Under the pieces are notes generated by a model. The model made no database searches, was not told where the DNA came from, and worked only from the letters and a program-made list of their open reading frames with translations. A stretch of 64,000 bases of DNA from Spirochaeta thermophila DSM 6578. Its GTDB lineage: Bacteria > Spirochaetota > Spirochaetia > Winmispirales > Winmispiraceae. Below, piece by piece: positions 5,090-31,440 of the stretch; position 1 is the stretch's first letter; every line of letters starts with the position of its first letter. The translations under genes were made by a program, and so were the position numbers. The DNA is taken from positions 1,054,001-1,118,000 of the forward strand of contig NC_017583.1 in NCBI RefSeq assembly GCF_000184345.1, given 5' to 3'.

Positions 5090-5622
5090 GCGAGGTGAAG
5101 AGCACCACGGTGATCGCGGTTCGAAGGAACGGCGTGGTGGCCATGGCGGGGGACGGCCAGGTGACCATGGGCACCACCATCATGAAGGGAAACGCTCGCA
5201 AGGTGAGGACCCTCTACGACGGGAGGGTCCTGGTGGGGTTCGCCGGTGCCACGGCCGACGCCTTCACCCTCTTCGAGCGGTTCGAGGGCAAGCTCAAGGA
5301 GTTCTCGGGGGACGTACTCCGGAGTGCGGTGGCCCTGGCCAAGGACTGGCGTACCGACAGGATGTTGAGGCGACTCGAGGCGTTGCTCCTCGTGGCCGAC
5401 AGGGAGCGGATGCTCCTCCTCTCGGGCACGGGAGACGTGGTGGAACCTGAAGACGGGGTCCTCGCGATAGGATCGGGAGGGCCGTATGCCCATGCCGCGG
5501 CGAAGGCCCTGCTCTCCCATACCGACCTCTCCGCCAGGCGGATCGCCGAGGAGTCCTTGCGGATAGCCGCATCCATCTGCATCTATACCAACGAACAGAT
5601 CATAGTGGAGGAGCTCTCATGA
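5086..5622 (+). CDS. hslV: ATP-dependent protease subunit HslV (ClpQ)
   Basis: A 178-residue proteasome-like peptidase subunit. After MSEVKS comes [10 protein letters not shown], so the propeptide is six residues and the nucleophilic threonine is Thr7. [20 protein letters not shown] and [19 protein letters not shown] are diagnostic for HslV. It forms double hexameric rings capped by the HslU ATPase encoded next. The ATG overlaps the xerC stop and is preceded by a good Shine-Dalgarno (GAAAGGAG). The stop overlaps hslU, giving coupled synthesis of both subunits. Confidence 0.97.
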
Positions 5623-6965
5623 GTGAAGGGGTGAAGCGGAAGCTGGAGGACCTCACGCCCAGGCAGATCGTGGAGGAACTCGACAAGTACATCGTGGGTC
5701 AGGGGCAGGCCAAGAAGGTGGTGGCCATCGCCCTCCGCAACCGGTGGCGCAGGCAGCAGCTTCCCCCCGAGCTGCGGGACGAGATCGCACCCAAGAACAT
5801 CATCATGATCGGTCCTACGGGCGTGGGGAAGACCGAGATTGCGCGGCGGATCTCCCGCCTCACCGGGGCACCCTTCCTCAAGGTGGAGGCCACGAAGTAC
5901 ACCGAGGTGGGGTACGTGGGTCGCGACGTGGAATCGATGATCAGGGACCTCATGAGCGTGGCGGTGGCCATGGTGAAATCGGAGATGCAGGCGGGAGTCC
6001 AGGAAGAGGCGGAACGGAGGGTGGAGGAACGTCTCCTCGACCTGCTCCTCCCCGGGAGCAGGACTGCCACCGGCGAGTCGGGTGTCTCGCCCGGCACGAG
6101 GGAACGGTTCAGGGAGATGCTGAAAAAAGGGGAGCTCGACGACCGTATGGTGGAGGTGAGCGTGCGGCGTCCGCTCATGCCCTCCATAGAGGTCTTCTCC
6201 GGTACGGGGTTCGAGGAGATAGGTATGAGTCTCGGCGGGCTCGCCAACCTCTTCGGAGGGGAGAAGAGGAAGAGGGTGAAGGTGCGACAGGCGAAGGAGT
6301 TGCTTCTCGCCGAGGAAATGGAGCGGCTCATCGACACCGATCAGGTGGCGGAGATCGCCAGACAGCGGGTGGAGCAGATGGGTATCGTCTTCATCGACGA
6401 GATCGACAAGATCGCGGTGAAGGAAGGCAAGACGGGTGGTGTGGATGTGTCCCGCGAGGGCGTCCAGCGGGATCTCCTCCCCATCATAGAGGGAGCCAAG
6501 GTGAATACGAGATACGGCATCGTGGATACCTCCCACATCCTTTTCATCGCGGCCGGGGCCTTCCACATGAGCAAACCGAGCGATCTTATCCCCGAACTCC
6601 AGGGCCGGTTTCCCCTTCGTGTGGAACTCGAGCCCCTGGCACGGGACGAGTTCTTCAAGATCCTCACCCAGCCCCAGAATGCCCTCATCAAACAGTACAC
6701 CGAACTCCTCAAGACCGAGGGGGTGGAGATCTCTTTCACCCAGGAGGCGCTCGAGGAGATCGCCCGGACCGCCGAGGAGGTGAACACACGTACCGAGAAC
6801 ATAGGAGCCCGCCGGCTGCATACCATCATGGAGGTGGTGCTGGAGGAGGTCTCGTTCGCAGGTCCCGAGATCCAGGGACAGAAGATCACCATCACCGCCG
6901 ACTATGTGAAAGAACGATTGGCGAAGGTGCTCGTCAATGAAGATATCACACGATACATCCTCTAG
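5619..6965 (+). CDS. hslU: HslU ATPase (ClpY) of the HslUV protease
   Basis: A 448-residue AAA+ unfoldase that feeds substrates to HslV. Walker A is GPTGVGKT at residues 65-72, Walker B is [10 protein letters not shown], and the sensor region runs through [25 protein letters not shown]. The variable I-domain lies between. The C-terminus ends DITRYIL, similar to the HslU tail that inserts into HslV. ATG 5619 overlaps the hslV stop. It is the last gene before an 82-nt gap that precedes the flagellar operon. Confidence 0.97.
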
Positions 6966-6980
6966 GCATGGAGAAATCCG

Positions 6981-7007
6981 TAATCTCCACGAGGAGGCGG
7001 CCGATAG
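6981..7007 (+). promoter_or_regulatory. Sigma-28-like promoter ahead of flgB
   Basis: TAAT (6981-6984), a 15-nt spacer and GCCGATAG (7000-7007) match the flagellar sigma-28 consensus (TAAA, N15, GCCGATAA) at 10 of 12 defined positions. The expected start is about 30 nt before flgB. No comparable sigma-70 signal was seen in this gap. Functionality is inferred. Confidence 0.6.
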
Positions 7008-7047
7008 GTAAAGAGAGGGAATCTCTCCAGTTCAGGGAGGCGCAGTG

Positions 7048-7464
7048 ATGTTTATCGGCAACACGTTCGGAAAGACGCTCGATATCCTCCATCGTGAGAT
7101 GGACGTGAACCTCATACGCCGGCAGATCATCGCGAACAATATCGCTAACGCCGACACCCCCAACTTCAAGCGGAGTGAGCTCAATTTCGAAAGCTCCCTC
7201 AAGAAGGCCCTCGAGTCTGAGAAGGTGAGGAAGCTGCCTGCCTTCATCACCGACCCCCGGCACATCCCTTTCAACAGACCGGTGGACTACCGCACGGTGC
7301 GGCCGAGGAAGATCCTCGATTTCTGGACGACCAGTAAGAACAACGGCAATAACGTGGACCTGGAGCAGGAGACCATGGACCTCCTCAACAACGAACTGCT
7401 CTACAATATGATGGTGCAGACGGTCTCCCACCAGTTCTCCCAGGTCCAGCTGGTGCTCAGGTGA
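7048..7464 (+). CDS. flgB: Flagellar basal-body rod protein FlgB
   Basis: A 138-residue proximal rod protein of the periplasmic flagellum. The N-terminal motif RRQIIANNIANADTPNFKRSELNFE is the conserved rod-protein signature, and the C-terminus has the matching coiled-coil helix (MDLLNNELLYNMMVQTVSHQF). ATG 7048 is chosen over the preceding GTG 7045 because GGGAGG ends 7 nt upstream of the ATG. It is the first gene of the long flagellar operon, downstream of the sigma-28-like promoter. Confidence 0.95.
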   Translation: MFIGNTFGKTLDILHREMDVNLIRRQIIANNIANADTPNFKRSELNFESSLKKALESEKVRKLPAFITDPRHIPFNRPVDYRTVRPRKILDFWTTSKNNGNNVDLEQETMDLLNNELLYNMMVQTVSHQFSQVQLVLR

Positions 7465-17688: not shown

Positions 17689-17886
17689 ATGATCAAGGTC
17701 ACGAAGCTCGATGGCACGGTCTTCTACGTGAATCCTCACCACATCGAATACATCGAGCTCAATCCCGACACCACCCTCATCATGCTCTCGGGCAAGCGTC
17801 TGGTGGTCCGTGAGGACTACCAGACGATTTTCGATAGGATCATCGAATATCGAAGGAAGATCGGCCTGTTCTTCAACGAGGAGTGA
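17689..17886 (+). CDS. flbD: Flagellar protein FlbD
   Basis: A 65-residue small protein of the FlbD family (MIKVTKLDGTVFYVNPHHIEYIELNPDTTLIMLSGKRLVVREDYQTIFDRIIEYRRKIGLF). It is a conserved companion of flgE and motA in spirochaetes and of the fla/che operon in Gram-positive bacteria; its biochemical role is not settled. A GGAGGGGT Shine-Dalgarno precedes ATG 17689. It ends 3 nt before motA. Confidence 0.9.
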   Translation: MIKVTKLDGTVFYVNPHHIEYIELNPDTTLIMLSGKRLVVREDYQTIFDRIIEYRRKIGLFFNEE

Positions 17887-29066: not shown

Positions 29067-29930
29067 ATGGCAGACCAGGCCGAATCTCTACGGGAGTTGA
29101 TGCGAGGTCGGATGGTCCCTCTCTCGCAGAGTCGTACACGGATCATCGCCGTGACCAGCGGTAAGGGAGGGGTGGGGAAGACCAACGTCGCCACCAATCT
29201 CGCCATCGCCTATGCCCAGCTGGGGAAGAAAGTGGTACTCATGGATGCCGATCTGGGCCTGGCGAACGTGAACGTGGTGCTCGGCATCATCCCCAAGTAC
29301 AACCTCTATCACCTCATAAGACGGCAGAAGACCCTGGAGGAGATCATCGTCGATACGCCGTACGGTATCAAGATCATCGCAGGGGCATCGGGATTCGCGA
29401 AGATCGCGAACCTCTCGGACGACGAGCGTGAGCATTTCATCGAAGAACTGGTGGGACTCTCCTTCGCCGATGTCATCATCATCGATACCAGCGCGGGGGT
29501 GACCCAGAACGTGATATCCTTCGTGGCGGCTGCCGACGATGTGGTCGTGGTGACCACCCCCGAGCCCACCGCAATCACCGACGCCTACGGGATCATCAAG
29601 ATCATCGCGACCGAGATAGAGAACATCAACATGGGACTGAAGCTCGTGGTGAATCGGGTGAAGAGTGTGGCAGAGGGACGACGGGTGGCGGAGCGGGTCA
29701 CCACCATCGCGGGACAGTTCCTCAACGTGAAGATCGACTATCTCGGATTCGTGTACGAAGACGGTTCGGTACAGGATGCGGTGCTGAAACAACGCCCCTT
29801 CATCGTCCTCGATCCCAGGGGGAAGGCCTCCATATGTGTCAAACACCTCGTGAGCAGACTGGAGAAGGTGGAATACCGTGAGGGGAAAGGACTCGGAGGC
29901 TTTTTGCGGAATCTCCTCGGCAGGGGGTGA
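29067..29930 (+). CDS. flhG: Flagellar number regulator FlhG (FleN/YlxH), MinD-type ATPase
   Basis: A 287-residue ParA/MinD ATPase that counteracts FlhF. The deviant Walker A GKGGVGKT is at residues 32-39, then VVLMDADLGLANVNVVLGI and DVIIIDTSAGVTQNVISFVAAADDVVVVTTPEPTAITDAYG. The N-terminus (QAESLRELMRGR) resembles the FlhF-activating helix. The last residues GLGGFLRNLLGRG may form a membrane-targeting amphipathic helix. It closes the core flagellar operon; a 58-nt gap follows. Confidence 0.95.
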   Translation: MADQAESLRELMRGRMVPLSQSRTRIIAVTSGKGGVGKTNVATNLAIAYAQLGKKVVLMDADLGLANVNVVLGIIPKYNLYHLIRRQKTLEEIIVDTPYGIKIIAGASGFAKIANLSDDEREHFIEELVGLSFADVIIIDTSAGVTQNVISFVAAADDVVVVTTPEPTAITDAYGIIKIIATEIENINMGLKLVVNRVKSVAEGRRVAERVTTIAGQFLNVKIDYLGFVYEDGSVQDAVLKQRPFIVLDPRGKASICVKHLVSRLEKVEYREGKGLGGFLRNLLGRG

Positions 29931-29941
29931 GGGGGCTTTGC

Positions 29942-29970
29942 TTGACGGAGGCACCGTTTTCGTCTAACCT
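29942..29970 (+). promoter_or_regulatory. Sigma-70 promoter for the fliA group
   Basis: TTGACG (29942-29947), a 17-nt spacer and TAACCT (29965-29970) lie in the gap after flhG. ACCGTT (29953-29958) and AACGGT (29974-29979) form an inverted repeat across the -10 box that might be an operator. The promoter would make the acidic membrane protein, FliA and downstream proteins. Confidence 0.5.
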
Positions 29971-29988
29971 GGTAACGGTTGGATTTAT

Positions 29989-30645
29989 ATGAAGATAACG
30001 TATGCCCTGGCGGGAGGAGGGAGTGTGGCGGCCTTGTCCCTCCTCATAGGACTCTTCTCCGGTAATCCTCTCGGGGTGGCGATGCTCCGGGCGCTGGGAA
30101 GTGGAGTCCTTTTCGGCGGGGTGCTGTACGTCGTCTGGGAGGTGGTGCGGCGGTTCCTCCCGGAGTTGGTTCAGGGGGAGGAGCCCGCCCCTTCGCCGCT
30201 CCCTGAGGAATCGGAGGAGGAACAGGACCACGTGGTCGATATCGTGCTCGAGGACGAAGCCTCCCCGTCCCCACGGACGGTTTCCGGGGAACAGATGGGG
30301 AGCGGAAGGGAGTATGATACCGAAGAATCGGTCCGATCCTTCGGGGAGAGGGGTGGAGAGGGGGAAAGCCAGGAGCACGGGGAAGGGATGTCGGACGCCT
30401 CCACCCTCGATTCGGATCGGGAGGATGGGGGACTCGACGAGTTCCCCGAGATCGATGATCTGGAAGAGGATTTCTTCGAAGAAGTGTCCGCCGAGGAGGA
30501 GGGCCCGGAGGAGGATGGTACGGATCCGCTGTCATTCGAGTCTTCTCAGTCGATCTCGGGGGGCGGAGGAGGCATGGGGGATCAGGATCCACAAGTCATC
30601 GCTCAGGCGATACGCACCCTATTGAAAAAAGATGAGAAAGGGTAA
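29989..30645 (+). CDS. Membrane protein with long acidic tail, between flhG and fliA
   Basis: A 218-residue protein of unrecognised family. Two N-terminal hydrophobic segments (about residues 5-25 and 30-53) are followed by about 150 residues dominated by Glu, Asp, Ser and Pro, with runs such as EESEEEQDHVVDIVLEDE and DDLEEDFFEEVSAEEEGPEEDG. The C-terminus (DPQVIAQAIRTLLKKDEKG) looks helical. Position directly before the sigma-28 gene suggests a spirochaete flagellar or regulatory accessory role; this is inference. No clear Shine-Dalgarno precedes the ATG. Confidence 0.75.
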   Translation: MKITYALAGGGSVAALSLLIGLFSGNPLGVAMLRALGSGVLFGGVLYVVWEVVRRFLPELVQGEEPAPSPLPEESEEEQDHVVDIVLEDEASPSPRTVSGEQMGSGREYDTEESVRSFGERGGEGESQEHGEGMSDASTLDSDREDGGLDEFPEIDDLEEDFFEEVSAEEEGPEEDGTDPLSFESSQSISGGGGGMGDQDPQVIAQAIRTLLKKDEKG

Positions 30646-30651
30646 TGGTTC

Positions 30652-31440
30652 ATGGATGAACGCAGCCTGGCGCAGAGGACAGAAGACGAGCTCTGGAAGG
30701 AATATCAGAAGACAAGGGATCCCCAGATCCGTGAGTACTTCATCAAACAGTACGCCCCACTCGTGAAATACGTTGCGGGAAAGATCGCGGTGGGGCTTCC
30801 CAGCAGCGTGGAGTTCGACGATTTGATCGGCTTCGGAACGTTCGGACTCCTCGATGCGATCGAGAAATTCGACCCCGAAAAGCATGTGAAGTTCAAGACC
30901 TATGCGGTCACCAGGATAAGAGGCGCCATCTACGACGAACTCCGTGCAATGGACTGGGTCCCTCGTTCGGTACGGCAGAAGAGCAAGGAGATAGAGGACG
31001 CCCTCCACAGGCTCGAGAGTTCCCTGGGGAGGGCCGCCACCGACGAGGAACTCGCCCGGGAGATGAATATGAGCTCGCGTGAGCTCCAGAAGACACTCCA
31101 GAAGATCAGTTCCACTTCCATCCTCTCCCTGCAGGAACTCTGGTACACAGGAGACGAGAACGATCGGGTGGCCATTGCGGATATGCTCGAAGCCCCCCAG
31201 GCCTATGATCCGGCCGCCCGCGTGGAGCGCGAGGAGATAAAGCGGGTGGTGGCGGAAGCCATAAAAGAGCTTCCTGAAAAGGAAAAGAAGGTCCTCGTGC
31301 TCTATTACTACGAAGATTTGACTTTGAAGGAAATCGGGGCTATCCTTAATGTGACGGAGTCCAGAGTGTCTCAGCTCCATACCAAGGCGATCAGCCGGCT
31401 CAGGGTGAAGCTGAGGAACATACGTAAAGGTATCTTCTAG
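30652..31440 (+). CDS. fliA: RNA polymerase sigma factor FliA/WhiG (sigma-28)
   Basis: A 262-residue group 3 sigma factor. Region 2 includes REYFIKQYAPLVKYVAGKIAVGLPSSVEFDDLIGFGTFGLLDAIEKFDPEKHVKFKTYAVTRIRGAIYDELRAMDWVPRSVRQK; region 4 includes ELPEKEKKVLVLYYYEDLTLKEIGAILNVTESRVSQLHTKAISRLR. These are hallmarks of the flagellar sigma-28 family. It should recognise TAAA-N15-GCCGATAA promoters, and a site of this type lies before flgB at 6981-7007. It follows the acidic protein after 6 nt. Confidence 0.96.
   Translation: MDERSLAQRTEDELWKEYQKTRDPQIREYFIKQYAPLVKYVAGKIAVGLPSSVEFDDLIGFGTFGLLDAIEKFDPEKHVKFKTYAVTRIRGAIYDELRAMDWVPRSVRQKSKEIEDALHRLESSLGRAATDEELAREMNMSSRELQKTLQKISSTSILSLQELWYTGDENDRVAIADMLEAPQAYDPAARVEREEIKRVVAEAIKELPEKEKKVLVLYYYEDLTLKEIGAILNVTESRVSQLHTKAISRLRVKLRNIRKGIF

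Follow-up and report, generated by a model that had tools for sequence, protein, structure and literature searches.

Layout of the flgB-fliA region

The window analyzed here is a 64,000-nucleotide stretch (bases 1054001-1118000) of the complete 2.56-Mb genome of Spirochaeta thermophila DSM 6578. Within it, a flagellar superoperon starting with flgB follows a dprA-topA-xerC-hslV-hslU gene run on the same strand. The main features, in window coordinates, are as follows.

5619..6965, + strand: hslU (TIGR00390), last gene of the dprA-topA-xerC-hslV-hslU run
6981..7007, + strand: sigma-28-type promoter, TAATCTCCACGAGGAGGCGGCCGATAG, in the 82 nt that separate hslU from flgB
7048..7464, + strand: flgB (TIGR01396), first gene of the flagellar superoperon, with a ribosome site, AGGGAGG, at about 7034-7040
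29942..29970, + strand: sigma-70-type promoter, TTGACG-N17-TAACCT, between flhG and the flgV-like gene
29989..30645, + strand: flgV-like gene, designated by architecture and position, directly before fliA
30652..31440, + strand: fliA, sigma-28 (FliA/WhiG family; NF004935, E 1e-122; TIGR02479, E 2.6e-88; both above the family cut-offs)

As proposed in the initial annotation, a TAAT-N15-GCCGATAG box lies on the + strand at 6981-7007, before a gene that TIGR01396 identifies as flgB. It is composed of a -35 element, TAAT (6981-6984), a 15-nt spacer, and a -10 element, GCCGATAG (7000-7007). The match to TAAA-N15-GCCGATAA extends over 10 of 12 letters with a spacer of 15, and the site thus has the TAAA and GCCGATAA-like elements, spaced by 14 to 16 nt, of a FliA promoter. 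The hslU stop is at 6965, the box ends 40 nt upstream of the flgB ATG at 7048, and a transcript from this promoter is predicted to start at about 7013-7015. Two short inverted repeats frame the promoter: GGAGA-N9-TCTCC (6970-6988), which overlies the -35 element, and AGAGA-N5-TCTCT (7012-7026), which follows the -10 element. Both are present in the sister species (G006) and absent from the next genus.

The fliA gene was correctly placed about 24 kb downstream in the initial annotation; it lies 23.6 kb from flgB on the same strand, with closely packed flagellar genes (rod, MS-ring, export, hook, and motor genes) between them. A same-strand distance of 24 to 27 kb is also found in the sister species and in three further genomes (G130, G118, and G192), and fliA and flgB occur in one run of genes in several families. 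Judged from gene order, the region is of the fla/che type, with a sigma-28 gene downstream in the flgB gene run. The 24-kb stretch contains internal promoter-like sites and a strong 13-pair hairpin (17797-17826), which is followed by a tail containing T residues and lies within a 65-amino-acid open reading frame between flgE and motA. This hairpin is a possible attenuator within the superoperon, and a continuous flgB-to-fliA transcript is therefore putative. No terminator-like site was found between hslU and flgB, and the upstream run, whose gene order resembles that of Bacillus subtilis, may read through into flgB. A consensus scan of the + strand from 5500 to 7200, which can overlook such a site, returned no sigma-70-like promoter.

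The second promoter, annotated as sigma-70-like at 29942-29970, gained support from comparison among genomes. A consensus sigma-70 scan of 29500-30800 missed it, as it matches at 8 of 12 letters and falls under the threshold, and it was recovered by cross-genus alignment. G130, a genus of the same family, retains both TTGACG and TAACCT, again 17 nt apart, although the flanking DNA has diverged. Another genus (G118) has TTGACG-17-TAATCT at that place, and a Treponemataceae genome (G208) has TTGACA-17-TATAAT at the equivalent place; the clarity of this promoter is uneven among the genomes examined. The gene that follows had no Pfam or NCBIfam family match. Its product starts with two membrane helices at the N terminus, the second of which carries an arginine, and also has an acidic polar tail and a conserved C-terminal peptide, VIAQAIRTLLKK; from the architecture published for FlgV and from its position, we refer to it as flgV-like.

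Conservation of the flgB box

Taken alone, the flgB site is weak evidence for a FliA promoter. An expectation of 0.01 occurrences per 64 kb applies to the exact TAAT/GCCGATAD pattern, but this pattern was composed only after the site had been seen. A tolerance of two mismatches to TAAA-N15-GCCGATAA gave 3 matches in the window versus 1.8 expected, which is within the reach of chance; single-site statistics were rejected as sufficient proof for this reason. Under a model built from other genera, the site scored 12.8 bits (P = 0.002) and, when both strands of the window were considered, only two other distinct places ranked above it. Without that model, the modest single-site numbers and the imperfect -35 element would suit a coincidental resemblance to a short consensus, or else a motif read by a factor other than FliA.

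Comparison with other spirochetes argues strongly against both of these readings. The training set consisted of 85 flgB upstream regions from other spirochete genera; Borrelia-like genomes were excluded along with the window's own genus. Unseeded expectation maximization (EM) from random starts recovered tTAAa-N15-tgCCGATaat in nearly all of these regions, with the core TAAA-N15-GCCGAT; in about one-third of them, it also picked up the conserved hslU end. A two-block EM, seeded with the consensus, reached a log-likelihood of 474, whereas the antisense strands gave 135 and none of 20 shuffled sets, run with the identical seed, exceeded 96. The sites of the window's own genus, held out of this model, gave P values of 0.002 (window site) and 0.005. 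Furthermore, when the fixed model was applied to 77 flgB upstream regions from another collection, 70 scored at least 8 bits, compared with 2 of 77 antisense controls and 8 inside flgB; as some of these genomes are related to training genomes, the sequences are fresh but the lineages are not fully independent. Likewise, CCGA was present in the 110-nt leader at 73 of 87 non-Borreliaceae junctions (14.7 expected). Overall, the comparison turns modest single-site evidence into strong evidence for a sigma-28-type promoter before flgB.

Among close relatives, the sister species carries TAAT-15-ACCGATAG at the orthologous place, and G130 has TCCGATAAGTAAAGA. The -35 element of G130 is TTAT and barely recognizable, so that the footprint shared by the two genera is confined to the -10 block. 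In Treponemataceae and others, the box is present before flgB while fliA resides at other loci, and dependence of the box on fliA linkage was rejected accordingly. A degraded box precedes flgB in one family (f41; loci L080 and L081); of the two genomes checked, one encodes FliA and the other, which is incomplete, yielded none.

Similar boxes also occur elsewhere in the S. thermophila genome. A search before flagellin genes, as suggested in the initial annotation, returned two genes with matching boxes, TAAA-15-TCCGACAA (14.9 bits) and TAAA-16-GTCGATAA (10.7 bits), against a 99th-percentile background of 8.7 bits for random 310-nt chunks. One of the three core-flagellin-like genes (L006) had no recognizable sigma-28 box. 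Chemoreceptor genes (20 receptor-domain matches, loci L008-L027) were essentially devoid of sigma-28 boxes, with one weak exception; the FliA regulon of this organism may therefore be small. The genome also contains flgM (40 bits). A weak sigma-28-like box, TAAA-N16 followed by a GACGATAC-like element, precedes this gene (L118, 1361-1390; genome position about 191660).

Absence of FliA and the box from Borreliaceae

FliA scored above the family cut-off in 0 of 12 Borreliaceae genomes searched, an assignment to family that here rests partly on the lack of FliA, and CCGA was found in the flgB leaders of 0 of 15 Borreliaceae loci, where a TATAAT-type sequence occurs instead. As other AT-rich lineages retain the motif (19 of 27 AT-rich non-Borreliaceae leaders contain CCGA versus 1.9 expected), base composition alone cannot explain its loss. 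The box is thus conserved where FliA is present and missing where FliA has been lost, although Borreliaceae are a single lineage and the joint loss therefore counts as one evolutionary event. The absence of the box fits the sigma-70 promoter published for the flgB operon of Borrelia burgdorferi (PMC11607428). That species shares the superoperon, which begins with flgB and carries flhF-flhG-flgV-fapA toward its end (PMC11607428), but differs from S. thermophila in lacking a sigma-28 gene and in having a sigma-70 promoter before flgB. With the recovery of the motif de novo, the held-out and antisense tests, the boxes before flagellin genes of the same genome, and the lack of the box in these genomes without fliA, a coincidental match or recognition by another factor is already disfavored and, in our view, very improbable.

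Proposed circuit and its precedents

The flgB site is probably a genuine FliA promoter through which FliA contributes to transcription of the superoperon, with the sigma-70-type promoter seeding FliA and positive feedback resulting. In such a circuit, the promoter at 29942-29970, before flgV-fliA, would supply the first FliA, probably together with read-through from hslVU. FliA would probably be restrained by FlgM; once released, it would direct RNA polymerase to start upstream of flgB, and the resulting transcript would run through the rod, MS-ring, export, hook, and motor genes to fliA itself. Transcription of fliA by FliA would close the positive feedback loop, which FlgM could gate. Sequence and comparison establish the two predicted promoters with their conservation, the gene order, and the presence of fliA and flgM; from these we infer use of the site by FliA, a single transcript reaching fliA, gating by FlgM, and net feedback. 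The positive feedback put forward in the initial annotation is, to this extent, well supported. The box is also compatible with early sigma-70-driven expression of basal-body genes via hslVU read-through.

The same features allow a second, rather unlikely reading, in which the site is a real FliA promoter that is too weak, or yields too short a transcript, to matter for fliA; hslVU read-through would then account for most basal-body expression and the sigma-70-type promoter for most fliA expression, and no meaningful feedback would arise. The lack of a detected terminator between hslU and flgB and the conserved sigma-70-type promoter directly before flgV-fliA are consistent with this view, as is the sigma-D promoter PD-3 of B. 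subtilis, a weak promoter that is redundant as long as SwrA is functional (PMC3874003). However, the box is kept phylum-wide with or without fliA linkage, which indicates selection for FliA input into flgB, and fliA and flgB share one gene run in several families. We therefore favor the FliA-driven loop.

In B. subtilis, sigma-A (PA) and sigma-D (PD-3) promoters precede flgB at the head of the operon encoding sigma-D, and in the absence of SwrA, deletion of PD-3 exposes a feedback loop (PMC3874003). Both organisms have a sigma-28-class promoter before flgB and a large operon that encodes sigma-28 toward its end. They differ in that the B. subtilis operon is headed by a sigma-A promoter and controlled by SwrA/DegU, whereas in S. 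thermophila the clear sigma-70-type promoter is internal, before flgV-fliA, with none recognized at the head, and fapA comes after fliA. Positive feedback has been proposed and partly demonstrated in B. subtilis (PMC3874003). A sigma-28-type promoter heading a sigma-28-encoding operon is thus not unprecedented. The "different flagellar hierarchy" initially suggested is only partly supported, given PD-3 (PMC3874003), the scope for early sigma-70-driven expression by read-through, and the presence of the box where fliA is unlinked. In Clostridioides difficile, sigD likewise lies toward the 3' end of its flgB operon, but the mapped flgB start is of the sigma-A type and a sigD mutant reduces flgB only slightly (PMC3865298). 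In Leptospira interrogans, the flgB start has been mapped 12 to 13 nt before the gene (PMC5243855).

A phylum-wide box would mean FliA feedback on basal-body genes in most spirochetes and would make the all-sigma-70 scheme of Borrelia a derived rewiring that accompanied fliA loss. More tentatively, and with somewhat less than an even chance of being correct, the ancestral spirochete circuit may have been "inside out," with the housekeeping promoter internal, before flgV-fliA, and the operon head chiefly sigma-28 driven, a circuit that Borreliaceae would later have dismantled. If so, early and late flagellar genes would be coactivated instead of following a strict sequence; in the Borreliaceae line, fliA would have been lost and the box exchanged for a sigma-70 promoter.

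A recent review assigns spirochete sigma-28 to late flagellar genes (PMC12655853). The promoter of Treponema denticola flaB2 (-35 TTAA, -10 CCGATAA, start determined by RACE [PMC9481697]) is also a spirochete sigma-28 promoter but controls a flagellin, a late gene, and not a rod operon. No earlier report of a sigma-28 box before a spirochete flgB was found in the open-access literature. As the regulatory type is already known from PD-3, its phylum-wide breadth is the part that looks new. Limberger et al. (1996) reportedly described a sigma-28-like promoter before tap1-flgE in the Treponema fla operon, which would be a further precedent.
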